This document shows positions 27,691-41,582 of a stretch of 64,000 nt of DNA, in pieces. The DNA is from Candidatus Margulisiibacteriota bacterium (GTDB lineage Bacteria > Margulisbacteria > Riflemargulisbacteria > GWF2-39-127), in assembly GCA_003242895.1 (NCBI GenBank), contig QKMY01000031.1, positions 1 to 64,000 on the forward strand, written 5' to 3'. The translations under genes and the position numbers were made by a program. How positions within the stretch are numbered: position 1 is the stretch's first letter; each line of letters begins with the position of its first letter. The notes beneath the pieces are model-generated. The model was not told the origin of the DNA, did not search any database, and saw only the letters and a program-made list of their open reading frames with translations.

Positions 27691-28980
27691 ATGGCTGATT
27701 CAATAAATGCAGGAAGCGGGGGCGGTATTCATCCAGGGGCTCCTGTAATATGGCCATCCAGCAAACAAGTTCAGCAAGTGCAGCAGACTCAACAAACTCA
27801 GCAAGCAGGTCAAGCAGTAACCGTACCTGCACAAGCTGCAAAAGAAACCTCTGTTACTCAGCAAATAGCGCAGCAGGCCCAACAAGCTCAGCAGTTTGGT
27901 AAACCAACAATAGCTCGATCGTTATCAAAAACTGATATTTCGGCGCAATTAGTTCAACTTGGACTGCCGGTAACAAATGACAATATCCAACTAGCAAATA
28001 AAATGCTTCTGCATGGTCTTGAATTAAGTTCCGAGAACTTCAATTCATTATTTAATATTCTAAAAAATACCGGGGGACAGTCGTCGACACAACAGGCTGC
28101 GTTAGTTGCGCTTAGCAAGGGCCTTCAAAATGAACAAGGAGTTATTAAGCCTCTCGAATCGTTTCTTGCCAATAATCCTCAACTTGCGAAACAGTTATTG
28201 TCTCTCAATAATGCTATGGAGAGTTTTAAGTCATCTATTCTAGGCGGGAGAAATTTGCTGTCTCCTCAATTATTAACCCAGCTTACCCAGATACTTACTG
28301 CAATGGATGATAAATACAAAAAGTTATTGAACGGTGAATCCGGTATTGAAAACTTTATGGAAAAGTTTTTACGTGGCGGCTCTCTTGAAGAGATGCGAGC
28401 ACTAAAGTCGCTGTTGTTCGGCGTAGCAAAGCAATTAATGAATAATCCTAACGAAGCCCTGTCTAGAGACTCAAAACAGCTGGCAAAAGCATTCATTGGT
28501 TTAGGAAAAAGCCTTGATGAAGTTATGCAAAATATTACGGCGCAAGCTATTCTGTCAAAGCCAGCGTCTCGTCAAGATGCTGCCTTGCCGGATAAATATG
28601 CCTATTGGCAAATACCAAATACCATGGGGCAGATGCCAGGAACCCTTGAAATACTTATTAAAAGAGATGAAGGCAATAAAAATGCTAAAATCAATCCTAA
28701 TCGTACAAGAATTATCCTTAAGGTGGAATCAGAAGAACTAGGGGAAATTACTATTATGGTTGATATTGAAGATAAGAGTATATGGTACGTGTTTAACAAT
28801 GAGAATGATAAAGTCAGAGAATTTATTATGGCAAATGCTGTCATTCTTCGGGATAGAATGAACCAACTCAATTGGAATGTTAAAGGAGTTCAATCTATTC
28901 GGAGAACGGTGGATCTAAAAAAATATTTAATTCCGACAATAAATATTGATACCTTAAAACGAATTAGCACAGAGGCATAA
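27691..28980 (+). CDS. fliK: FliK-like flagellar hook-length control protein
   Basis: 429 residues. The N-terminal third is Gln/Ala-rich and low complexity (QQVQQTQQTQQAGQA). The C-terminal part, about residues 320-405, has the Flg_hook (FliK C-terminal) pattern: beta-strands TRIILKVESEELGEITIMVD followed by a helix and MNQLNWNVKGVQSI. This domain signals hook completion to FlhB. First gene of the flagellar operon; the flhB-tail gene follows after 11 nt, which supports the call. Confidence 0.75.
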   Translation: MADSINAGSGGGIHPGAPVIWPSSKQVQQVQQTQQTQQAGQAVTVPAQAAKETSVTQQIAQQAQQAQQFGKPTIARSLSKTDISAQLVQLGLPVTNDNIQLANKMLLHGLELSSENFNSLFNILKNTGGQSSTQQAALVALSKGLQNEQGVIKPLESFLANNPQLAKQLLSLNNAMESFKSSILGGRNLLSPQLLTQLTQILTAMDDKYKKLLNGESGIENFMEKFLRGGSLEEMRALKSLLFGVAKQLMNNPNEALSRDSKQLAKAFIGLGKSLDEVMQNITAQAILSKPASRQDAALPDKYAYWQIPNTMGQMPGTLEILIKRDEGNKNAKINPNRTRIILKVESEELGEITIMVDIEDKSIWYVFNNENDKVREFIMANAVILRDRMNQLNWNVKGVQSIRRTVDLKKYLIPTINIDTLKRISTEA

Positions 28981-28991
28981 AGAGACAAACA

Positions 28992-29333
28992 ATGGATAAT
29001 CAAAAAGATAAAAACGAACCTAAAAAAGATTTTAAGATAGCTGCAGCACTTAAGTACGATGTTGACAAAGATCCTGCTCCAATAATTTTAGCATCTGGAA
29101 AAGGATCTCTCGCAGATGAAATACTTAAGATTGCTGAAGATAATAACATTCCGCTCTATGAAGATGCCAATTTAGTAAATTTGTTAGCTTCGCTGGAGGT
29201 TGATACTGAAATCCCTCCGGAATTGTACGTCTTGGTTGCAGAAGTTTTATCGTTTGTATACAAACTCGATAGAATGAAACAGAAGAAAGAACAGATTTCC
29301 CGACGGCTTACAGAGATGAAGGGAAAAGACTGA
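28992..29333 (+). CDS. FlhB cytoplasmic-domain-like protein (YlqH type)
   Basis: 113 residues matching the C-terminal cytoplasmic domain of the export-gate protein FlhB without its membrane part: AAALKYDVDKDPAPIILASG, then PLYEDANLVNLLASLEVDTE and IPPELYVLVAEVLSFVYKLD. The NPTH autocleavage motif is absent, as in the stand-alone YlqH family that often sits next to fliK. A short N-terminal Lys/Asp-rich tail precedes it. It may modulate substrate switching. Confidence 0.87.
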   Translation: MDNQKDKNEPKKDFKIAAALKYDVDKDPAPIILASGKGSLADEILKIAEDNNIPLYEDANLVNLLASLEVDTEIPPELYVLVAEVLSFVYKLDRMKQKKEQISRRLTEMKGKD

Positions 29334-29335
29334 AA

Positions 29336-30100
29336 ATGATGCAGGCAAGCGTTGTTCTGATTTTCAGTATGATAGTGTTATCAAATTACGTCTATGCAAA
29401 TGAAAAAACGATAGAGATTGCTAGTAATTCTTTACAGAGGACAGAATATAAATATAAATTATTAATGGATAATATGGTCAATGCCAAGACTCCCGGATAC
29501 CGTGAAGTGAGCGCAAAAGACGAAATGACGAGGCGAGGGGATGTCGAATCGAGTTCGTATTACAACTATTCTCAAGGTGAGTTCATTCATACTTCAAGAA
29601 AGTTTGATGTTGCTATTGAAGGCAAAGGATTTTTTACCGTTGCAACAAAAGAAGGAACGCTGTTGTATACGAGGGATGGAAGGTTTACTCTTGATTCAGA
29701 AAATAGGTTATGCACATATTCTCAAAATTTTCTTGTAATGGGAGAGCTTGGTCCGATTATTATTAATGAGCCAGATAATACTTCTATCACTGAGACAGGG
29801 AAAATTGTTAAAGAAGATTTTGTTGTCGATAAACTAAAGATTTCATCTTTTAAAGACCTTACTGTGTTAGCTCCAGCTAATGGAAGTTTTTTTTATGTGA
29901 AATATGATAATTATTCGACCATTGATTTTGCGGAGGATAGCAAACTAAAAATAGGTTATATAGAAGGTCCTAATACTAATTTATCCCGGCAACTCTCAGA
30001 TATTGCTCAGGTACAAAAAAAATATGACGCTGATTCGAGAGTAATTCAGTTCCGGTTAAAATCTATGTCAAGTAGTTTAGAAATGGGTAAAATACAATAA
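29336..30100 (+). CDS. flgF: FlgF-like flagellar rod protein with N-terminal signal peptide
   Basis: 254 residues. Core FlgF/FlgG pattern: NSLQRTEYKYKLLMDNMVNA, KTPGYRE, GEFIHTSRKFDVAIEGKGFF, YTRDGRFTLDSENRL, and a C-terminal heptad helix (DADSRVIQFRLKSMSSSLEM). Unusually a hydrophobic stretch ending VYA precedes the rod N-terminus (MMQASVVLIFSMIVLSNYVY), reading as a Sec signal peptide. Normal rod proteins have none because they leave by the flagellar type III apparatus. A shorter start inside the hydrophobic region (Met12) would shorten but not remove it. flgG follows. Confidence 0.82.
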   Translation: MMQASVVLIFSMIVLSNYVYANEKTIEIASNSLQRTEYKYKLLMDNMVNAKTPGYREVSAKDEMTRRGDVESSSYYNYSQGEFIHTSRKFDVAIEGKGFFTVATKEGTLLYTRDGRFTLDSENRLCTYSQNFLVMGELGPIIINEPDNTSITETGKIVKEDFVVDKLKISSFKDLTVLAPANGSFFYVKYDNYSTIDFAEDSKLKIGYIEGPNTNLSRQLSDIAQVQKKYDADSRVIQFRLKSMSSSLEMGKIQ

Positions 30101-30153: not shown

Positions 30154-30948
30154 ATGTTTCGACAGCTTTATGTTGGTGCAACAGGAATGAATGCCCTTGA
30201 GCAGGATATGGTAGTTATTACAAATAACGTCTCAAATTCAAAGACTACTGCTTTTAAAAAAAGCAGAGCAGAAATGGAGAATTTATTTCCGCAAGTACTC
30301 GACGAGGCAGTATCTGAAATCGACTCGGAGACCAAACGGCCTGCTGGAATTGAATTTGGTTCAGGAGTCAGAGTTGTTTCAACTCCAAAAGACTTTGCTC
30401 AAGGAACTCCTGAAATAACTTCCAATCCGCTTGATCTTATGATTCAAGGCGAAGGTTTTTTTACAGTACGCATGCCTGATGGGACGCTAGCCTATACCAG
30501 AGCCGGAAATTTTCATAGGGACGATGCCGGGAATATAGTGGATCCCAATGGTCATATCCTTGAGCCTAGTATTGTTATTCCTCAGGATGTAACCGGAATT
30601 CGTGTTTCTGCTGATGGCGGCATGTATGTTAAGATAACTAATGCTATGCAAGAAAATCTCATAGGACAGCTTTCTATTTCAAAGTTTTCTAATCCAGCCG
30701 GATTAGAGAGCATTGGTCAAAATCTTTATCGTGATTCGTTATCTTCTGGTGAAGCTGCAGAAGGTGTTCCGGGAAAAGATGGTTTTGGGACAATCGCTCA
30801 GTTTTCCCTTGAAGGGTCTAACGTTGATATTGTCGATGAAATGATGAAAATGATCATAACCCAAAGAGCTTTCGATATTATATCCAAGTCTATTCAGGTT
30901 GGCGAGAATATGCTTCGATCAGCTATAGAGATAGCTAAGGTTACATAG
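30154..30948 (+). CDS. flgG: Flagellar distal rod protein FlgG
   Basis: 264 residues, standard FlgG length. N-terminus MFRQLYVGATGMNALEQDMV with the rod motif TNNVSNSKTTAFKK, central LMIQGEGFFTVRMPDG, LAYTRAGNFHRDDAGNIVDP and the C-terminal GSNVDIVDEMMKMIITQRAF. No signal peptide. AGGAGG lies before the ATG. The distal rod spans the P and L rings encoded downstream. Confidence 0.95.
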   Translation: MFRQLYVGATGMNALEQDMVVITNNVSNSKTTAFKKSRAEMENLFPQVLDEAVSEIDSETKRPAGIEFGSGVRVVSTPKDFAQGTPEITSNPLDLMIQGEGFFTVRMPDGTLAYTRAGNFHRDDAGNIVDPNGHILEPSIVIPQDVTGIRVSADGGMYVKITNAMQENLIGQLSISKFSNPAGLESIGQNLYRDSLSSGEAAEGVPGKDGFGTIAQFSLEGSNVDIVDEMMKMIITQRAFDIISKSIQVGENMLRSAIEIAKVT

Positions 30949-30963
30949 AATTAAGAGTGATAA

Positions 30964-31680
30964 ATGATTAAATGTAATTTCTTTTCAGGTTTGCTTTTTT
31001 TTTTGTTATTTAATGCACTAGTGTATGCAGAATCATTTGAAAATAATTCATTTAAAACGAGCTTCTGCACCTTATTGAAACAAGAAATTATGAAAAGAAA
31101 TTCGCTATATTATAATTCTGAGATTATAGTTGATTTTTTGTATATCCCCAAAAAGCTCGAACAGGTGGAACTAAAAATTTCTTCTTTAGAACTAAAAATT
31201 CCAAGTCGACTCACTAACGTTATTGGTAAATTAGTCGTTCCAACTTTTGTTGATGGGAAAAAAAATAATGTAATTGTCTCTGTCAAAATTATTAAAGATA
31301 TTGTTGTTGCTTCAGCTAATATAAAAAAATACGATATTATTTCTTCTGATAAAATTTGCATAAAAAAATACGATTTATCTTCCGTACCATCCAATGTGAT
31401 TCTTGACCCGGCTACTATAATAGATAAAGAATCCGTTACCAACATTTCAAAGGATACGATAGTCCTTGACTGGATGATTCGGAATGTTACATTAGGCAAG
31501 AAAGATAGTGATGTGCAGATAGTTGCAAAAACAGGTGATGTTACTGTAAAATGTACGGGAAAGTTACTTCAGGATTCTTCGATTAATAATTATGTATGGG
31601 TACAAAATCCGAAATCGAAAAAAAAACTTAAAGGAATACTAGTTGATAGTAAAACTGTAATAGTAGACGTGTTGGAATGA
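30964..31680 (+). CDS. flgA: Flagellar P-ring assembly chaperone FlgA
   Basis: Periplasmic chaperone for FlgI. It is 238 residues with a signal peptide (hydrophobic 6-20, ending VYA), a divergent N-terminal region and a C-terminal SAF-like domain ([58 protein letters not shown]). Located between flgG and the ring genes flgH and flgI, as in many flagellar operons. Confidence 0.88.
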
Positions 31681-31696: not shown

Positions 31697-32050
31697 ATGT
31701 TAAGGTTTATATGTAAGTCAAAAATTCATCGGGCAACGGTATCCGACAAAAACATTAACTATGAAGGAAGTATTACTATTGATAAAAAATTGTTATTGCT
31801 GTCAAATATTTTCCCTTACGAAAAAGTTCAGGTAGTTAATATAAATAATGGGAAAAGATTTGAAACATATGTGATTGAAGGAAAAGAAGATAGCGGCGAA
31901 ATATGTATGAATGGCGCAGCGGCAAGACTTGTTGAGCTAGGGGATAAGATCATTATTATAGCCTATGGCATGCTCTCTGATGAAGAAACAAAATCTTTTT
32001 TGCCTTCCGTTGTCTTGGTAGACGAAAAGAATCAACCGATTGCAAAATAA
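31697..32050 (+). CDS. panD: Aspartate 1-decarboxylase PanD
   Basis: Pyruvoyl enzyme that makes beta-alanine for pantothenate and coenzyme A. It is 117 residues. The self-cleavage site is in [13 protein letters not shown] (Gly24-Ser25), catalytic Lys9 region [13 protein letters not shown], and [28 protein letters not shown] follow. All processing residues are present. It lies 16 nt after flgA inside the flagellar operon, a context with no obvious functional link; no other pan genes are in this window. Confidence 0.94.
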
Positions 32051-32302: not shown

Positions 32303-32917
32303 TTGAATAATAAATTAATAACATTATTTTTTCTCATAATGATTATAGGCGGTATTGTTTATGCAGATTCTTTATGGAAAGAAGAATCAAAATCGCCGTA
32401 TGTAAGAAATAATCCATTAAAAGTAGGCGATATTATTACAGTCGAAATAATCGAATCAACTACAGCGTTACAACAAGCACAGACTGATTTATCAAAGAAA
32501 TCTGATGTTAATATTGATATATCCTCATCATGGGAGAGGATAGCGAACATAGTTTCCGCTACAAATTCAAAAAGCGAACGACATGATAATAAAGCTGAAT
32601 TATCAGGCGGGGATGATTATAGAGGAAAAGGACAGACAACCCGGAAGAGCGTAGTTAAGGCCAAAATCACGGTGATGGTAACGGGAAAGATTGATGATAA
32701 CATTTTTGATGTAGAAGGTACTCATCAGGTCAAAGTGAATGATGAAATGGAAAAGATATATATTAAAGGAAATATTAGAAAACAAGATATTTCAAATGAA
32801 AATACTGTTTTCTCTAACCAGATAGCAAATGTGCAAATATCTGTTGAGGGTAACGGTACAGTTTCTTCTAAACAGAATCCTGGTATTATGACAAGATTAT
32901 TTGGATGGTTGTTCTAA
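32303..32917 (+). CDS. flgH: Flagellar L-ring protein FlgH without lipobox
   Basis: 204 residues. Recognised by SLWKEESKSPYVRNNPLKVG, DIITVEIIESTTALQQA, and the C-terminal EKIYIKGNIRKQDISNENTV ... FSNQIANVQISVEGNG. Signal peptide of about 21 residues ends VYA before DSLW. FlgH is normally a lipoprotein with a Cys at the mature N-terminus; here there is no cysteine at all, so it should be cut by signal peptidase I. TTG start with AGCAGGAAA upstream. flgI follows. Confidence 0.9.
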   Translation: MNNKLITLFFLIMIIGGIVYADSLWKEESKSPYVRNNPLKVGDIITVEIIESTTALQQAQTDLSKKSDVNIDISSSWERIANIVSATNSKSERHDNKAELSGGDDYRGKGQTTRKSVVKAKITVMVTGKIDDNIFDVEGTHQVKVNDEMEKIYIKGNIRKQDISNENTVFSNQIANVQISVEGNGTVSSKQNPGIMTRLFGWLF

Positions 32918-32954
32918 GGTAATTAAATTATTTTTTTTACGAAAGAGATTGTAT

Positions 32955-34022
32955 ATGAGACGTAATTATTTAATAAAGGTATTTTGTATAATATCTCTCG
33001 TTCTTTTAGTTGATGTAGGCAATGCTGCAAATGTCAGAATAAAAGATATTGGAAAAATTCTTGAAGCTCGTGATAATCAGATTATGGGCTTTGGTCTTGT
33101 GGTTGGTCTGAAAAATACCGGTGATTCTTCCAGGACGGAGTTCACTAAAATTGCACTAGGTAATTTGCTCAACAACATGGATATCACTAGTCTGTCGGAT
33201 TCATCATTCAAAAGCAAAAATGTTGCTGCTGTAATGATAACAGCAGATTTGCCGTCCTTTCTAAAGCCTGGGCAGAGAATTGATGTTGCTGTTTCTTCAC
33301 TCGGTGATGCTCGTAGCCTTAAAGGAGGAACATTGCTTCTGTCCCCACTCAAGGCAGCTGATGGAAATGTATATGCAGTAGCTCAGGGAGCTTTGGTTGT
33401 CGGCGGAATTGATGAATCTTCCGCAGAAACAGTATACGCCAGGAATCAAACTACGGTTGGAAGGATTAATGGCGGAGCAATTATAGAAAAAGAAGTTCAT
33501 GTCGATCTTACATCAAAAAAATATTTGACAATAGTGCTCAATAGCCCTGATTTTACGAATGCCTCAAGAGTGTCGTATGCAATTAATTCTTCAGGCATGG
33601 CAAGAAGTAAAGCAAAAGATGCAAGTACTATTGTTGTCGAATTAACTGATGATTACAAACAAAATATTGTAGATTTTATATCTAGAATTGAAAAACTATC
33701 AATTAATCCGGACGCAATTGCGAAGATAGTTATCTCAGAAAGAACAGGCACTATAGTTATTGGAGAGAACGTTAAGCTAACTGCGGTGGCGGTAACTCAC
33801 GGACAAATAAGCGTAAAGATCGATAATGATGAACTTCTGCACCAAACTAACATTAAAGTATATGAGAAACCATCTAAGCTAGTACAAGTCTCCTCAGGAG
33901 CTAATCTAGCGAGTCTGGTGAAAGCCTTGAATGCAATAGGAACTACGCCTCAGGATCTTATTTCAATATTGCAGGCAATAAAAAAAGCAGGAGCTTTGAC
34001 AGCGGAAATAGAGATTATTTAA
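32955..34022 (+). CDS. flgI: Flagellar P-ring protein FlgI
   Basis: 355 residues from ATG 32955 (signal peptide MRRNYLIKVFCIISLVLLVD..GNAA). Conserved: RIKDIGKILEARDNQIMGFG, LVVGLKNTGDSSRTEFT, VAVSSLGDARSLKGGTLLLS, GAIIEKEV, ISERTGTIVIGENVKLTAVA and VKALNAIGTTPQDLISILQA. All parts of the periplasmic ring protein are present. An earlier in-frame ATG at 32901, inside the end of flgH, would add a pointless extension. Confidence 0.95.
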   Translation: MRRNYLIKVFCIISLVLLVDVGNAANVRIKDIGKILEARDNQIMGFGLVVGLKNTGDSSRTEFTKIALGNLLNNMDITSLSDSSFKSKNVAAVMITADLPSFLKPGQRIDVAVSSLGDARSLKGGTLLLSPLKAADGNVYAVAQGALVVGGIDESSAETVYARNQTTVGRINGGAIIEKEVHVDLTSKKYLTIVLNSPDFTNASRVSYAINSSGMARSKAKDASTIVVELTDDYKQNIVDFISRIEKLSINPDAIAKIVISERTGTIVIGENVKLTAVAVTHGQISVKIDNDELLHQTNIKVYEKPSKLVQVSSGANLASLVKALNAIGTTPQDLISILQAIKKAGALTAEIEII

Positions 34023-34034
34023 AGGAAGCCTTAA

Positions 34035-34361
34035 ATGAATAATTTGAGTATTGATCCTATGCAGAGATATGAGTACCTAGATCTGATTGACAAGCAGAAG
34101 CGAGTCAATAAAAGTAATACAAACGAAGAATTTTTAAATATGGTTATTGAACAAATTTTTTTGAGCAAAATATTAACAACGAGCAGCCATATTAATGATA
34201 ATACCGATAGCGAAGAGCCGGAGGATGTAGTGACTTTTCAAAAAAATGGAATTATGGATGACTATTTTAAGCAAAATGTTATTTCGCAATTAACAGAATC
34301 AGATTCATTTGGATTACTAGATGCACTAAAAAAACGGGGATTTAGTAATGACGTTAAATGA
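34035..34361 (+). CDS. flgJ: FlgJ-like rod-binding protein (no muramidase domain)
   Basis: 108 residues, matching only the N-terminal rod-capping half of FlgJ: FLNMVIEQIFLSKILTTSSH, GIMDDYFKQNVISQLTESDS, FGLLDALKKR. The peptidoglycan hydrolase half is absent, as in many non-enteric bacteria where a separate hydrolase acts. Position after flgI is the standard one. Overlaps the sigma factor gene by 14 nt. Confidence 0.8.
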   Translation: MNNLSIDPMQRYEYLDLIDKQKRVNKSNTNEEFLNMVIEQIFLSKILTTSSHINDNTDSEEPEDVVTFQKNGIMDDYFKQNVISQLTESDSFGLLDALKKRGFSNDVK

Positions 34362-35118
34362 AGCTGCTGAAACTGAGAATAAAGCAAAAACAATTGCGAA
34401 ACTAGGTAAACTGAACGATAGTGTAGTTAAAGAGCATTTAGCAATGATTCAATCAATTTCGGCTAGTATTGCAGCTGGTGGAAAGCTTCCTCCTGGTATT
34501 TATTTTAATGACTTAATAAGTTATGGATATGAAGGTTTTCTTAAAGCTTATAGTAGTTTTGACCATGAAAAAGGCGCTCAATTTCAAACCTATGCAGCCT
34601 ATCGGGTCCGAGGTGAAATATTAGATAGATTAAGAAAAGAATGGAAATATAGAAATCCGATCTCATACAAGTCTGTTCAGGCTAAGATTCAGGATAAAAT
34701 CACCGAAGTTGTGCAAAGTACCTTAGAAATAGAGCAGGAAGGCGATCCTGAACCTAAAGAAGTTGGTGCAGAAGACGAAAAAAAAAGAAGAGCTGCCGAC
34801 ATCATTGCCAACTCCGCTGTAGTTTACATGTTGTCCCTAGATAATGAAGAAATTAAAGGACAATTGATTGGACAGGGGGATATCGCCGAAGAGTTGTTTA
34901 CTGAAATGGAATTTTCAAACGAAAGAAAAATATTATGGGAAGAAGTTACCTTATTAACTGATCAGGAAAAAGATTTTGTCTACCTTTTTTATGAAAAAGA
35001 AAAAACACAAAAAGAAATTGCAGAGATTATGTCCGTGTCAAAAAGTAAGGTAAGCAGGTTGCATGTGAAAATCTTAAAAAAATTAAGAAACCGTCTTACT
35101 AAAAGATTAAACAATTAA
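34348..35118 (+). CDS. fliA: FliA/WhiG-family flagellar sigma factor (sigma28)
   Basis: 256 residues. Region 2 reads FNDLISYGYEGFLKAYSSFD followed by FQTYAAYRVRGEILDRLRKE; region 3 begins RNPISYKSVQAKI; region 4 is LLTDQEKDFVYLFYEKEKTQ then KEIAEIMSVSKSKVSRLHVK. Directs late flagellar gene transcription. Regions 3 and 4 are separated by an acidic linker of about 40 residues, longer than usual. No FlgM gene is seen in the window. I see no sigma28-type promoter in the window either. Confidence 0.9.
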   Translation: MTLNEAAETENKAKTIAKLGKLNDSVVKEHLAMIQSISASIAAGGKLPPGIYFNDLISYGYEGFLKAYSSFDHEKGAQFQTYAAYRVRGEILDRLRKEWKYRNPISYKSVQAKIQDKITEVVQSTLEIEQEGDPEPKEVGAEDEKKRRAADIIANSAVVYMLSLDNEEIKGQLIGQGDIAEELFTEMEFSNERKILWEEVTLLTDQEKDFVYLFYEKEKTQKEIAEIMSVSKSKVSRLHVKILKKLRNRLTKRLNN

Positions 35119-35133
35119 CACAGGGTGAAAAGA

Positions 35134-35421
35134 ATGAGTATATTTAACCCATCAGTTGAAAAGTTAGAGAATGGTATTCAGAACTGTGCAAAAACACAAC
35201 AGGATATTGCCAAAAATATTGCCAATTTAAGCAATCCAAATTATGTTCCGAAGACGTTTGATAAAGAATTAGCTGAAGCACAAGGACGACTTGATAGAAA
35301 AGTGCTTATTGAAGATGAAATGACAAAAATGAGTAAAAATAGTGTTCGTTATAACACCTATGTTAAATTATTAACTATGAGATATCAAAACATAAGAAAA
35401 GTTGTTACGCTAGGTAAATGA
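35134..35421 (+). CDS. flgB: Flagellar proximal rod protein FlgB
   Basis: 95 residues, shorter than the usual 120-135. N-terminus NPSVEKLENGIQNCAKTQQD followed by IAKNIANLSNPNYVPKTFDK is the rod motif; the C-terminus VRYNTYVKLLTMRYQNIRKV is the partner helix. No signal peptide. AGGGTGA before ATG 35134 decides the start (a GTG at 35125 is in frame). flgC overlaps by 4 nt. Confidence 0.88.
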   Translation: MSIFNPSVEKLENGIQNCAKTQQDIAKNIANLSNPNYVPKTFDKELAEAQGRLDRKVLIEDEMTKMSKNSVRYNTYVKLLTMRYQNIRKVVTLGK

Positions 35422-35873
35422 TTATGCATCGTTATTTTATCATTATTTTTTTATTGTTTTTTTTTAATTCCTCTAGTTATGCAAAAGAGGGTATTGAAAA
35501 AGCGCTTGATACCAGTTCCAAGGCGATTATCGTTCAACAGGCACGAATGCAGATAATCGCAGAGAATATTGCAAATATAAACACAACCAAAACAGCTAAT
35601 GGCAAACCCTACAGAAGGAAAGATGTTATAATAAAAGAAACTACAGAAAGTGTCAAAATTGCGGGTGTTTATGAAGATAAAGAACCCTTTTTAAAGGTGT
35701 ATGATCCAGGACATCCTGATGCTGATAAACAGGGGTTTGTCTATTATCCAAATATCAGTATTTCGCGAGAAATGACCGACATGGCATACACTTCGAAGGT
35801 ATATGATGCTAATATTGCTGTTTACAATGCTGCAAAAAACATGGCTCAGGCAATAATTAATTTAGGGAAGTAA
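35418..35873 (+). CDS. flgC: Flagellar proximal rod protein FlgC with Sec-type signal peptide
   Basis: 151 residues. From residue about 24 it is an ordinary FlgC: EKALDTSSKAIIVQQARMQI, IAENIANINTTKTANGKPYR, YYPNISISREMTDMAYTSKV and a C-terminal helix. In front stands a textbook signal peptide: basic MIMHRYF, a hydrophobic core IIIFLLFFF and a SSSYA cleavage site. There is no start codon between the signal and the FlgC core, so it must be translated. Rod proteins normally lack Sec signals. It overlaps flgB by 4 nt; fliE follows. Confidence 0.9.
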   Translation: MIMHRYFIIIFLLFFFNSSSYAKEGIEKALDTSSKAIIVQQARMQIIAENIANINTTKTANGKPYRRKDVIIKETTESVKIAGVYEDKEPFLKVYDPGHPDADKQGFVYYPNISISREMTDMAYTSKVYDANIAVYNAAKNMAQAIINLGK

Positions 35874-35893: not shown

Positions 35894-36211
35894 ATGGATG
35901 AATTTAATGTAATTAAGAAAATAAAGTTTGGCGATGGTGAAACTACTAATTTTCTATTTAATGCAGATAAGATCAATTATATAGAACATCCCTTCCAGAA
36001 GTTTTTAGACTATGCGGTGGATTCTTTGAGCAAAACAAGTATTTCAGAAATACAAACAAACATGACACTCGATAATTATGCGGCAGGAAAGGCTTCTCTT
36101 GAAGAAGTTATGTTTTCTGAAAATAGAACTGGAATACAAATAAATATGGCAGTAACTGCAATCAATAATGTTGTTTCTTCCTTTAAAGAAATTCAACAGA
36201 TGCCAATATAA
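35894..36211 (+). CDS. fliE: Flagellar hook-basal body protein FliE
   Basis: 105 residues, located between flgC and fliF as usual. C-terminal half carries the FliE pattern: NYAAGKASLEEVMFSENRTG, IQINMAVTAINNVVSSFKEI, QQMPI. FliE joins the MS ring to the rod. No signal peptide. Confidence 0.85.
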   Translation: MDEFNVIKKIKFGDGETTNFLFNADKINYIEHPFQKFLDYAVDSLSKTSISEIQTNMTLDNYAAGKASLEEVMFSENRTGIQINMAVTAINNVVSSFKEIQQMPI

Positions 36212-36289: not shown

Positions 36290-38017
36290 ATGGGTGAGCA
36301 AGAGAATTATGAAGAACCAAGTAGCCCCTCTAGACTATTAGGAACCAGAAGAAACATATTTATTATTATTATTATTGCTTTATCTGTAGTATTATTGATT
36401 GGTTTTTTTTCGGTTACTAAAAAATCTGCCAATTCAAGGAAAGTATATAAATATGCGGATGTATTTGAACGTCTTAGCAACGAGGAAGCAGCAAAATTAA
36501 GAGAGGAATTGAGTTTTGAAGGCATTCATTTTAAAACAAAAATTAATGGTAAATACAGCATTATTGAAATCAGAGAAGATGAAGCTGATGAAGCACGAAT
36601 AAAAATGGCCCAAAAAGGGCTGCCTGAAGGTGGAGTTGTTGGCTTTGAGATTTTCGATAAAGATTCAGGATTAGGTGTTACGGATTTTGATAAACGTATA
36701 AAGTTTATTCGAGCTATTAGCGGTGAGTTATCAAGGAACATATCTCGTATTAGTTCTATTGATAATGCAAGAATACAAATAGTATTACCTGAAGAAAAAA
36801 TATTCTCCATGAAAAAACCGGAAGTAACTGCATCCGTATTAGTTCAAAGAAAAAAAGGCGCAATTATAACTGTTGAGCAGATTCGTGGAATTATGCATTT
36901 GTGTGCGGCAAGTGTTGAGTCACTCAAGCCTGAGAATGTCGCAGTAATTGATATGGAAGGTCATATTCTAAGCGAAAAAGTGCTTGATGTCGGTAATGGC
37001 TCTAACCAAAAAGACGCAAAACAAAAAAGCGATGAGGATTCTGACGAAAACACTGGAACTATCGATAACTTTGAACAAGCAAGTTTAACCCAAACGGATG
37101 AATTGAATAGCAAAGATAATCTTTACAATAAAGAGTCGGTTGCAACTGGCAACCAGGTAGAAACGAAAGTAATTAATAATTCTACAACTGATTATTTAAT
37201 GATGAAAGTAAATATTGAGCAAGATTTTACTCAAAAAATTAATAAAGTATTAAATAAATTATATCCGGTAGGGAGCGCTTCCCTTATTACATCGGTTGAA
37301 TTATCTAGTAAGTCAGGCAGCTCAATACCCAGAGTATCAGGAATAAATGTTCTGATATTGATTGATTCACGTAGTGTTAATCTTACGCAATCTCTAAAAA
37401 ATATTACATTTAAATCTGTAGCCTCGGTTATCGGTTATAAAAAAAATCGAGACAATATTGAACTTCGAACTACTGCTTTTGCTAAAGTAACCTCTGATGA
37501 ACTGAATAGCAAATCAGTTGCAAAAGTTTTTGATTCTGAGAAAAAGAATACGAAGAAAAAGATGGAAGATAGTGATAAAGGCAAAAAATTATATAATGCA
37601 AAAACCACTCCATTATATGAGAAAAAACACTCGAACAACAAAGAAACTAAATTCTCAAATTCCTCAATAAACCGAAATTCTTATAATAGTGTAAGCTCTA
37701 AAAAAGCAAAGCAAAAGGAATTAATTGAAAAACAGTTCAAATATTTTAATATTAAGATTTTAGGAGCAATTCTTTTTGTACTCGCACTCCTGGTTGTTAT
37801 TAGTATAATTATTAAAAGGAAGAAAGAATCGAATAATTTTTATAGTAAAGAGTTTGAAGCTTCGGTGTTTAATTCAGAACGAAACAACAAACTAGATCGG
37901 GAAGCCGAGGGCTTGGAGCAAAATGAAGAAATAGACAAGATCAAAAACTTAGTAGATGAAGATCCGGACAAAATAGCTGCAGTATTAAAAGAATGGCTAA
38001 ATGATGAGAAATCCTAA
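36290..38017 (+). CDS. fliF: Flagellar MS-ring protein FliF
   Basis: 575 residues. First membrane helix at about 23-43 (IFIIIIIALSVVLLIGFF), then the ring-building motifs YADVFERLSNEEAAKLREEL, GVVGFEIFDKDSGLGVTDFD, LSRNISRISSIDNARIQIVL. A long charged, low-complexity periplasmic region follows (about 240-300 and 390-470), and the second helix is near 487-508 (ILGAILFVLALLVVISIII). The C-terminal KIAAVLKEWLNDE is the FliG-binding tail. AAGGAG upstream. Confidence 0.93.
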   Translation: MGEQENYEEPSSPSRLLGTRRNIFIIIIIALSVVLLIGFFSVTKKSANSRKVYKYADVFERLSNEEAAKLREELSFEGIHFKTKINGKYSIIEIREDEADEARIKMAQKGLPEGGVVGFEIFDKDSGLGVTDFDKRIKFIRAISGELSRNISRISSIDNARIQIVLPEEKIFSMKKPEVTASVLVQRKKGAIITVEQIRGIMHLCAASVESLKPENVAVIDMEGHILSEKVLDVGNGSNQKDAKQKSDEDSDENTGTIDNFEQASLTQTDELNSKDNLYNKESVATGNQVETKVINNSTTDYLMMKVNIEQDFTQKINKVLNKLYPVGSASLITSVELSSKSGSSIPRVSGINVLILIDSRSVNLTQSLKNITFKSVASVIGYKKNRDNIELRTTAFAKVTSDELNSKSVAKVFDSEKKNTKKKMEDSDKGKKLYNAKTTPLYEKKHSNNKETKFSNSSINRNSYNSVSSKKAKQKELIEKQFKYFNIKILGAILFVLALLVVISIIIKRKKESNNFYSKEFEASVFNSERNNKLDREAEGLEQNEEIDKIKNLVDEDPDKIAAVLKEWLNDEKS

Positions 38018-38032
38018 TGAAGGAATAATTTA

Positions 38033-38578
38033 ATGACAAAAATATCGGGACGAGAAAAAGCGACAATTTTATTATCAATAATCGGACATCAAAAAGCTGC
38101 CCAATTATTGCGAAGACTGCCGGAAGAGGTATCAAACCTACTGGCAGCAAGAGTTGCTGAATTACCAAAACCATCTTCAAATCAAATAGCTTTTCTTCTC
38201 AGCGAACTATCAACTAATGTTCTGGAAGCACCGAAAGATGTAATGTCAATATCCTCTTCCCAGATTAAAGAAACTCCTGCGGATATAACTGAAAGCAGTC
38301 AGTCGATACAGATAGGTTCTTCAGAGGAGCGATTACTCTCTCTCCCGCCAATGAAACTCGTCAATAGATTAAAAAATGAAAAATTCAGAATACAACGATA
38401 TATTCTATCAATTTTACCAGAGGGTAAAGCAAATGATATTTTGACTATCCTGGATTATAATAAAAAAAGAGCAGTTACGAATTTTGTTATTGAACAATTT
38501 GAATTTTCTGAAGAGATTAAACCTGTGATTATTGAGGCTATTCTCAGTAGTAATGAGGCTGAAAATGGCGCTAATTAA
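38033..38578 (+). CDS. fliG: FliG-like switch protein lacking the C-terminal torque domain
   Basis: 181 residues versus about 330-350 for FliG. The N-terminal domain (GREKATILLSIIGHQKAAQL, LRRLPEEVSNLLAARVAELP) would bind the FliF tail just upstream. The second half resembles the FliG middle domain (LVNRLKNEKFRIQRYILSIL, PEGKANDILTILDYNKKRAV), but the EHPQ FliM-binding signature reads EKFRIQ. The C-terminal domain with the charged torque helix is absent; the frame ends at a stop that overlaps fliH by 14 nt, so it is not a broken gene. A full FliG might lie elsewhere. Confidence 0.8.
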   Translation: MTKISGREKATILLSIIGHQKAAQLLRRLPEEVSNLLAARVAELPKPSSNQIAFLLSELSTNVLEAPKDVMSISSSQIKETPADITESSQSIQIGSSEERLLSLPPMKLVNRLKNEKFRIQRYILSILPEGKANDILTILDYNKKRAVTNFVIEQFEFSEEIKPVIIEAILSSNEAENGAN

Positions 38579-39599
38579 AAAAGGTTCTTTTATTGAGAAA
38601 GAAAAAAAAACGTTATCTTTTGAAAATGTTTCTCTTGAGAATAGTCATCGATTCGACTCAACTGATGAGGAAAAACTATCGATAAATCAGTCATTCGTAA
38701 ATAACTCTAGTAATGGCAGTGGGGCAAGTCTGCCTGATAGTACCAAGATTTCAACTGTTACTGATAACAAGGATAATTCCCAAATAGATCTATTAAAAAA
38801 AGAAAAGCAATTAATTGAACAAGAGATTATAAATTTAAAGCTTAGGGCAGATGAAGAAATTTCGATCCTAAGGAAAAATGCAATAAGTGAAGCTGAGATA
38901 ATTAAAAATGATGCCAGGGAAGAAGGTTACAATACTGGAAAGATAGAAGCAGAACAGCAATATACGCAAAAGATAGCAGAAATCGGGCAAGCTGTGAATA
39001 GCATAATGGATCATAAGAAAAGTATTATTAAAGAGACTGAAGGCGAGCTACTAAAACTTAGTATAAAAATTGCAGAACAAATTATTAGAAGTGAAATATC
39101 CTTAAATCAGGGGGTTGCATTAAACATTGTTTCCGAAGCAATCACTAAAATCACTGATAGGGATCGAGTAATGGTTAAAGTGAGTAAAAGTGATTTTGAT
39201 TTCGTACAAAAAAACAAAGATAGAATAATGACTATAATGGATGACATAAGAAATTTAACAATCCAGGAAGATGGAAGCATTGAACCGGGAGGCTGTATTA
39301 TTGAAACCGATCTAGGATATGTTGATTCCAGGGTTTCGATCAAATTGGAGGCAATAAAGGCAGCTCTGCTTAAGCTTTATAACAACAACAATCCCATGGC
39401 TAACAACAATATGATAAATAATCCACAACTTTCTCCAATAACGCAACCGAAAGTACAGTTTTCACAATCTCTTCCTATTGCTCAGTTAACAGAAGAAAAA
39501 GTTCTTAACGAAGATATCTACAACCAGGCTGAAACAATTGACGAGGATGATGACGACGATTTATTTGACTTTGATGATGGTGATGATTTGTTTAAATAG
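38565..39599 (+). CDS. fliH: Flagellar export protein FliH
   Basis: 344 residues from ATG 38565 (GAGGC upstream). A disordered Ser/Asn-rich N-terminus, long coiled coil at about 75-150 (DLLKKEKQLIEQEIINLKLR), then the FliH/YscL C-terminal domain (LLKLSIKIAEQIIRSEISLN; IQEDGSIEPGGCIIETDLGY). A further acidic tail of about 80 residues ends in an Asp-rich run. Negative regulator of FliI. Overlaps fliG and is followed by fliI. Confidence 0.87.
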   Translation: MALIKKGSFIEKEKKTLSFENVSLENSHRFDSTDEEKLSINQSFVNNSSNGSGASLPDSTKISTVTDNKDNSQIDLLKKEKQLIEQEIINLKLRADEEISILRKNAISEAEIIKNDAREEGYNTGKIEAEQQYTQKIAEIGQAVNSIMDHKKSIIKETEGELLKLSIKIAEQIIRSEISLNQGVALNIVSEAITKITDRDRVMVKVSKSDFDFVQKNKDRIMTIMDDIRNLTIQEDGSIEPGGCIIETDLGYVDSRVSIKLEAIKAALLKLYNNNNPMANNNMINNPQLSPITQPKVQFSQSLPIAQLTEEKVLNEDIYNQAETIDEDDDDDLFDFDDGDDLFK

Positions 39600-39653: not shown

Positions 39654-41051
39654 ATGCCTATTATTGATATGTCAAAGTATTATAAAATAATTGAAAAAAC
39701 AGAGCTTGTAAAAGTTGTAGGCAAAGTTATTCATGTTGTTGGTCTTATTATTGAAGCTCGGGTTGAAGGTGTGAGCGTAGGAGAATTGTGCACTATTTAT
39801 TTAGATGAAGGACATACTGTATACGCTGAAGTTGTTGGGTTCAAAGAAGGAAAAGTCTTGCTCATGCCTCTTGGCAGTATTGAAGGAATACGTCCTGGAA
39901 GCAAAGTTATAGCTTCGGGTCATTCTTTGCAAGTTAAGGTTGGCCAAAACTTACTTGGCAGAGTATTAGATGGACTGGGAAATCCAATGGATGGAAAAGG
40001 AGAAATTATAGCTGAAGAGCTTTATTCTCTTGATAGAGATCCTCCTGACCCGGTAATGCGGCCACGGATAGTAGATCCAATGGAAGTCGGCGTTAAAGCA
40101 ATTGACGGATTACTTACTATTGGGAGAGGTCAGCGAATGGGGATTTTTGCAGGCTCAGGTGTGGGCAAAAGTACACTCATGGGCATGCTTGTTAGAAATT
40201 CTGAGGCTGAGGTTAGTGTTATATCCCTAATCGGAGAACGAGGACGAGAGGTTCGTGATTTTATTGAAGAATCCCTTGGTGAAGAGGGTTTGAAAAAATC
40301 TGTCGTTATTGTTGCAACATCTGATAAACCTCCGTTGATAAGATTAAAAGGTGCGCTAGTTGGAACTGCTATCGCTGAATACTTTAGAGACCAGGGAAAA
40401 AATGTTCTTTTTATGATGGACTCTGTTACTAGATTTTCGATGGCTCAAAGGGAAGTCGGGTTAGCCTCCGGAGAACCTCCGACAACGAAAGGATATACCC
40501 CTTCAGTATTTGCACTTATGCCTCGCTTAATGGAACGTGCGGGAACGAGTCAGAAAGGTTCTATAACAGCGTTTTATACTGTGCTTGTCGAAGGTGATGA
40601 TTTTAACGAACCCATTGCTGATACTGCAAGGAGTATCCTTGATGGTCATATTATGTTGTCTCGTGATCTTGCAGCAAAGAACCATTATCCTTGTATTGAT
40701 GTATTGCATAGCGTTTCTCGATTATTTACAACTGTTACAAAAAAAGAACAGCAGAAGTCTGCAGGAAATATGCGGGAGGTCCTTGCCAGATATTCCGAGG
40801 CCGAAGACTTAATTAACATTGGCGCTTATGTAAAGGGAAGCAATCCAAAAATTGATAATGCAATAGCTAAAATTGATAAAGTAAACGATTTTCTAAAACA
40901 AGGCGTATTTGATAAATCGACCTATGATGAAGCTAAGAAAAAAATGTCAGGGATTTTCGGCGGCGAATTTTCTTTGTCGGAAAATACTAACAAGAACTCT
41001 GAATTCGATGGATTTGATGATTCTGATTTTGATGTATTTGATAATGTATAA
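39654..41051 (+). CDS. fliI: Flagellum-specific ATPase FliI
   Basis: 465 residues. Walker A GIFAGSGVGKSTLMGML near 164, GERGREVRDFIEESL, Walker B VLFMMDSVTRFSMAQREVGL near 247 and GEPPTTKGYTPSVFALMPRL. Full-length type III ATPase of the F1-beta family. An acidic C-terminal tail (EFDGFDDSDFDVFDNV) extends past the usual end. Confidence 0.96.
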   Translation: MPIIDMSKYYKIIEKTELVKVVGKVIHVVGLIIEARVEGVSVGELCTIYLDEGHTVYAEVVGFKEGKVLLMPLGSIEGIRPGSKVIASGHSLQVKVGQNLLGRVLDGLGNPMDGKGEIIAEELYSLDRDPPDPVMRPRIVDPMEVGVKAIDGLLTIGRGQRMGIFAGSGVGKSTLMGMLVRNSEAEVSVISLIGERGREVRDFIEESLGEEGLKKSVVIVATSDKPPLIRLKGALVGTAIAEYFRDQGKNVLFMMDSVTRFSMAQREVGLASGEPPTTKGYTPSVFALMPRLMERAGTSQKGSITAFYTVLVEGDDFNEPIADTARSILDGHIMLSRDLAAKNHYPCIDVLHSVSRLFTTVTKKEQQKSAGNMREVLARYSEAEDLINIGAYVKGSNPKIDNAIAKIDKVNDFLKQGVFDKSTYDEAKKKMSGIFGGEFSLSENTNKNSEFDGFDDSDFDVFDNV

Positions 41052-41111: not shown

Positions 41112-41582
41112 ATGGTTAAAAAACCTAAAATAGGAATATTTAAGTATAATTTAGGCTCTGTCTTGAAGGTGAAACTTATTCGAGAGAAGCAAGAGAAAGA
41201 AAAGTTTGCAGAAACACAACGGAAACTCGAAGAAGAAAAACGTAAAGAAGAAGAAATAAAGAATAATCATCGTCAGGCACAAAACGCACTGCGAGAACAT
41301 TTTGAAGAAGGTAAAAAAATTGACTTTTCACAAGTTTTTTTACGTCAGAATCAAATTGAAAATTTAAAAGAAAAAGTTGAAGTCCAAAAGAAAATCGCAA
41401 TTAAAGCCGAAGAGATAAATGAAGAACAGAGAACAAAGCTTGTAGACTCAATGAAAGAAAAGAAAATTATTGAAAAAGACAAAGAAAACAAGCTTAAAGC
41501 ATGGAAAGATTTAATGAATAAAGAAGAAATGAAGTTTATTGATGAAATTGCGACAACTAAATATAATAATGAAGTTATTTAA
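41112..41582 (+). CDS. fliJ: FliJ-like flagellar export chaperone
   Basis: 156 residues, almost wholly charged alpha-helix forming a coiled coil (LIREKQEKEKFAETQRKLEE), the FliJ pattern. Identification rests on its position directly after fliI and its length and composition; FliJ is poorly conserved. Would act as the stalk-like escort in the export ATPase ring. Confidence 0.78.
   Translation: MVKKPKIGIFKYNLGSVLKVKLIREKQEKEKFAETQRKLEEEKRKEEEIKNNHRQAQNALREHFEEGKKIDFSQVFLRQNQIENLKEKVEVQKKIAIKAEEINEEQRTKLVDSMKEKKIIEKDKENKLKAWKDLMNKEEMKFIDEIATTKYNNEVI

Follow-up and report, generated by a model that had tools for sequence, protein, structure and literature searches.

A Sec-type signal ahead of the rod protein FlgC in a second, flagellum-like gene cluster of Margulisbacteria

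The rod, hook and filament proteins of bacterial flagella use the flagellar export apparatus, while FlgH and FlgI carry cleavable signals and use the Sec pathway (PMC8298488). In rod assembly FliE forms the first layer on FliP/FliR, followed by FlgB, FlgC, FlgF and FlgG (PMC12403130). The window studied here, a stretch of 64,000 nucleotides from a Candidatus Margulisiibacteriota bacterium, includes a flagellum-like cluster with an FlgC that resembles the proximal-rod FlgC of Salmonella (7cg0, 7bin), the family model scoring over its cut-off and the fold being the same over the mature part. It differs from known rod proteins, which use the flagellar export apparatus (PMC8298488), by a Sec-type signal peptide. 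Sec signals of the same style occur on FlgA, FlgH and FlgI of the same operon, but these, unlike FlgC, are not axial rod proteins.

Two known machines offer a comparison. The ordinary flagellum of the same genome (C57/C59) has the part list of MS ring, rod, P and L rings and export gate in common with the window machine, whereas the latter lacks the FliG torque domain, has rod proteins with Sec signals and occurs mostly in genomes without flagellin. The likeness to the virulence-type injectisome (non-flagellar T3SS), that of a motor-less export machine with a short axial structure, is inferred; unlike it, the window machine has FlgI/FlgH rings, a flagellar-type FliF, FlgB/C/F/G and FliE (no secretin data). 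The SctJ model gave 57.9 bits on the window FliF (cut-off 161.95) and the FliF model 168.3 (cut-off 129.75), so the SctJ mark of an injectisome is not met. A literature search of open-access papers found no account of rod proteins with Sec signals, nor of this Margulisbacteria system; priority is not established.

The gene order flgF-flgG-flgA-flgH-flgI-flgJ-sigma-flgB-flgC-fliE-fliF-short fliG-fliH-fliI-fliJ is, with some gaps, found throughout the phylum. In the window the features are the following:

27691..28980, + strand, FliK-like hook/rod length control protein (PF02120 over cut-off)
28992..29333, + strand, protein like the C-terminal domain of FlhB, FlhX type (PF01312 positions 261-335)
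29336..30100, + strand, FlgF-like rod protein (TIGR02490 flgF 111 bits, below the cut-off of 178.5; FlgEFG subfamily 93.7, over 70.25)
30154..30948, + strand, FlgG distal rod protein, no signal (Pfam)
30964..31680, + strand, FlgA P-ring chaperone, Sec signal, positive control (TIGR03170; signal rule)
31697..32050, + strand, PanD-like aspartate decarboxylase (PF02261, E=1.8e-49)
32303..32917, + strand, FlgH L-ring protein, Sec signal (sequence, cluster profile, signal rule)
32949..34022, + strand, FlgI P-ring protein, Sec signal (sequence and cluster profile; 37/40 homologues pass the rule)
34035..34361, + strand, FlgJ-like rod factor, no signal here (position and a profile built in the analysis; no NCBIfam FlgJ match)
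34348..35118, + strand, FliA/WhiG-type sigma factor (TIGR02479 120.7 bits, below the cut-off of 189.6)
35125..35421, + strand, FlgB rod protein, short, no signal (position; TIGR01396 35.9 bits, below 59.05; no Pfam match)
35418-35873, + strand, FlgC open reading frame, 151 aa, its ATG start overlapping the flgB stop
35418..35483, + strand, Sec-type signal peptide of FlgC, 22 codons, MIMHRYFIIIFLLFFFNSSSYA (translation and relatives; cleavage inferred)
35484..35873, + strand, mature FlgC rod protein, 129 aa plus stop (TIGR01395, 7cg0 fold)
35894..36211, + strand, FliE, no signal (PF02049 over cut-off)
36290..38017, + strand, FliF MS-ring protein (TIGR00206 168.3 bits, over 129.75)
38033..38578, + strand, short FliG, 181 aa, N/M domains (Pfam; no FliG_C match in the window)
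38532..39599, + strand, FliH-like protein, start uncertain (position and cluster profile)
39654..41051, + strand, FliI export ATPase (TIGR03497 661.8 bits, over 629.8)
41112..41582, + strand, FliJ-like protein (position and cluster profile)

The stand-alone FlhX-like gene sits after the FliK-like gene and before flgF; in L034 and L116, too, flgF is preceded by similar small proteins. The gene panD lies between flgA and flgH, a place kept in the class relatives L036 and L037.

The sequence-only reading had placed a Sec signal ahead of an otherwise ordinary FlgC, and this was borne out by the family model, the signal test and the relatives. The TIGR01395 FlgC equivalog covered residues 29-151 with 122.6 bits (cut-off 102.1), PDB FlgC chains were matched at the sequence level, and the AlphaFold model (mean pLDDT 84) was matched by Foldseek to Salmonella FlgC 7cg0 with E=1.3e-12 and TM 0.87 by target length. 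Residues 1-22 consist of MIMHRYF, the core FIIIFLLFFF and SSSYA before K23, with basic H4 and R5, ten hydrophobic residues F7-F16 and the -3/-1 site S20-x-A22, and they pass a rule-based type I signal test (positive n-region, hydrophobic core, small-x-small site). The predicted mature N-terminus is KEGIEKALDTSS, starting from K23 if cleavage takes place as inferred. When aligned with ordinary FlgC, the ordinary start coincides with this predicted mature start, and the signal is thus an addition ahead of a complete FlgC. On the signal, the window protein does not fit the description of FlgC as a type III exported protein without a Sec signal, although its export route is inferred. In the predicted model the first helix spans 2-53; an uncleaved signal would lengthen it, and removal is therefore likely, by inference, to be needed for rod assembly.

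Close relatives could have spoken against the signal by having a start at the FlgC core and an unconserved extension, as the sequence-only reading had foreseen, but instead 13 family-level groups have kept the extension as a Sec-type signal. FlgC N-termini were read in 41 phylum genomes, 40 of which were readable and one, of f15 (G032), was left undecided. The window-type FlgC has a signal in 26 of the 40 proteins and an ordinary start (e.g. MGLxxALDIS) in 14. The letters of the signals differ widely while the design is kept, with a basic start followed by a hydrophobic core and a small-x-small site. A paired control was provided by all eight class genomes, with two FlgC genes each, the window-type FlgC having a signal in 8/8 and the FlgC of the flagellar cluster in 0/8, where it starts with M(S/G)FF or V-GFF in all eight. 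Also in an outside control, FlgC starts in Lachnospiraceae and other bacteria, no signal was seen (a few frames were unclear). The contig search used a class-level alignment, the phylum-wide one being too diverse; related phylum contigs include 'Candidatus Margulisbacteria bacterium GWF2_35_9' and 'Candidatus Termititenax sp.'

Three trivial sources of the extension were considered and discarded. An artefact of AT-richness or AT bias was ruled out since family f4 has the FlgC signal at 52% G+C, and a frameshift was rejected as well. Chance origin was rejected because the design recurs in 26/40 phylum FlgC proteins as against 0/8 of the ordinary-flagellum paralogues; among the Met positions inside the window reading frames, 8 of 303 would count as a signal by the rule. 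From the sequence evidence, the presence and conservation of a predicted Sec-type signal on the window FlgC are well supported, and its cleavage, route and function are inferred.

The signal rule, a crude one used in place of SignalP, requires a basic n-region, a nine-residue core and a small-x-small site. It was passed by the positive controls FlgA (35/38), FlgH (35/40) and FlgI (37/40), and by none of the negative controls FliE (0/34), FliH (0/27), FliI (0/30), FliJ (0/21) and sigma factor (0/37). The rule has its limits, as also FliF membrane helices (22/38) and short FliG (12/35) pass, the latter probably by a hydrophobic N-domain helix (not inspected singly), and it cannot distinguish cleaved signals from anchors that stay uncleaved. 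Five passes labelled FlgG were rejected, since in these the profile had mis-assigned the FlgF-type gene that lies upstream.

Signals were found also on other rod parts: FlgB in nine families, FlgF in ten (the window FlgF being the weakest) and FlgJ-like proteins in seven (f4, f9, f10, f12, f13, f18 and f19). Locus L123 has clear Sec-type starts on both FlgB (MPYKKIITVIALVMGLTATSHAQ) and FlgC (MKKQHWIVITLIALCTLIPRGLVAQ), and neither FlgG nor FliE had a signal in any locus read. The window FlgF has a signal-like N-terminus, MMQASVVLIFSMIVLSNYVYA before NEK, which fails the charge rule because no K or R follows the ATG; an in-frame CTG two codons 5' of the ATG would add a Lys. The sequence-only reading had mentioned neither this start nor the FlgB and FlgJ signals elsewhere, nor the second, ordinary flagellum with its signal-less FlgC. 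The gene flgF is seemingly missing beside flgG in f2/f3 class relatives and in f4 loci (L036, L037, L103-L108, L131).

The trait tree was built from FlgI, FlgH and FliF with f15 excluded and the states assigned by family. On it the FlgC signal changes state once, one clade of 16 genomes being without it and the others with it; gain and loss cannot be distinguished from the tree counts. The signals of FlgF, FlgB and FlgJ are largely nested inside the part of the tree with the FlgC signal, which suggests, as an inference, a stepwise change. Fourteen genomes have the same cluster and no rod protein with a signal; the machine can therefore do without Sec delivery.

The ordinary flagellum of the same genome, on contigs C57 and C59, includes FlgB, FlgC, FliF, FlgD, FlgE, an FliM-type protein, FliP/Q/R, FlhB, FlhA, FlgK and others, with a full-length FliG of 333 residues, and flagellin is encoded elsewhere in the genome. 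A second export apparatus, with FlhA, FlhB, FliR, FliQ, FliP, FliO and FliN, is present on contig C22, together with an FliM-like protein, a 292-residue FlgE-like (hook-like) protein that lacks a Sec-type signal, and an FliK-like protein. FlhA, FlhB, FliP, FliQ and FliR of C22 and FliI of the window make up a flagellar-type export set, the link between the two being inferred: C22 was assigned to the window machine by its duplicate gene content and its FlhA clade, not by linkage in this genome (G000). The FlhA tree of nine sequences has two clades, a flagellar and a second-system one, and the latter is common to phylum members having only this system. Between FliP and FliQ of the second export operon lie two proteins without Pfam matches (L087:19323-19982 and L088:1-588, G000:C22), and the 219-residue intervening protein has relatives at the same FliP/FliQ place in L095 and L099.

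The suggestion of an unconventional basal body gained support from the motor and the filament. The FliG_C torque domain had no match in the window, the 181-residue FliG having N and M domains only, and the cluster FliG is 153-263 aa long in nearly all phylum loci. FlhA is present in 52 of 55 genomes and no flagellin was found in 47 of the 55, the eight with flagellin being exactly the class genomes with an ordinary flagellum.

FliG_C domains occur also elsewhere, in some other genomes mostly within long proteins unlike flagellar FliG. In three loci of G000 outside the flagellar clusters, long proteins end in FliG_M and FliG_C; one of these proteins has a signal-like start, the other two have S-layer and TPR domains. 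Their positions are G000:C19:46092-47741 (L089:6093-7742), G000:C14 (L090:5750-8485) and G000:C58 (L091:7640-10300). Similar FliG_C reading frames of 480-900 residues were seen in flagellin-less phylum members.

The FlgC extension can be read in other ways. It could be an uncleaved anchor to the inner membrane or the MS ring, making FlgC a collar and not a rod subunit, and the signal rule, which is passed by FliF helices as well, is blind to this difference. The anchor is nevertheless unlikely, as the core is short (ten residues in the window FlgC) and followed by small-x-small sites, the mature protein fits the rod FlgC fold from end to end, and signals occur also on FlgB, FlgF and FlgJ and on neither FlgG nor FliE. 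Early export substrates bear short hydrophobic export motifs, and so a modified type III export signal, with FlgC still passing the export gate, can be imagined too. The apparatus is there, and it is the usual route of rod proteins (PMC8298488), but neither FlgG nor FliE of this machine bears such an extension, which moreover resembles the FlgA/FlgH/FlgI signals of the same operon and not the flagellar FlgC starts; this we hold to be somewhat less probable still than the anchor.

It is also possible that no signal is made at all. The claim that no start codon lies between the signal and the rod domain holds for ATG and GTG and for the stretch past the core, but not for the core itself, where codon 13 is TTG; translation could begin there or at a rare ATT, and in some relatives an internal Met lies close to the FlgC core. 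Such a start is scarcely credible, as GGAGG Shine-Dalgarno-like stretches directly 5' of the signal start codon in many relatives support the long start, the signal is kept across 13 families, and in f2 relatives an internal start would cut away part of the D0 helix. Finally, the cluster could be part of the ordinary swimming flagellum as an alternative basal body or rod, since both clusters coexist in the eight class genomes. The duplicate part set is full, including two FliE and two FlhA, the short FliG has no torque domain and the system type occurs in flagellin-less genomes, which leaves this very improbable.

We consider it likely that the window encodes the base of a second type III machine, one derived from the flagellum, without a torque ring and with a proximal rod delivered by Sec. 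The sequence-only reading had offered periplasmic delivery or an unconventional basal body as alternatives; both have gained support, and together, although periplasmic delivery is still inferred. The limits of this explanation are that the signals are rule-based and without protein data, and that the window FlgF has no positive charge after its ATG.

According to the proposed mechanism, the proximal-rod subunits (FlgC, and FlgF, FlgB and FlgJ where they bear signals) would be synthesised in precursor form, pass the inner membrane via SecYEG, lose their signals to signal peptidase and add from the periplasmic side to a base of FliE, FliPQR and the MS ring. FliE, FlgG and the 292-residue FlgE-like protein would still be exported via the FlhA/FlhB/FliPQR gate, and FlgG and the short hook-like protein may form a fixed rod and a short needle through the FlgI/FlgH rings. 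The use would be secretion or attachment, not swimming, and without a torque-bearing rod the need to build the rod from inside may be relaxed.

This flagellum-like base, without a motor and usually without a filament, is probably a little-recognised machine for secretion or attachment, its function being inferred and stator data lacking. The chances are evenly divided on the wider reading, according to which it stands for a third class of type III machine beside the swimming flagellum and the injectisome, with an axis built by two routes and Sec use extending stepwise from FlgC to FlgF, FlgB and FlgJ. Flagellar axial proteins are understood to use the type III channel. A signal-bearing FlgC beside signal-less paralogues in the same genomes makes rod building from the periplasmic side testable. 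The finding also suggests that a motor-less relative of the flagellum exists across the phylum, which bears on the kinship of flagella and secretion machines.
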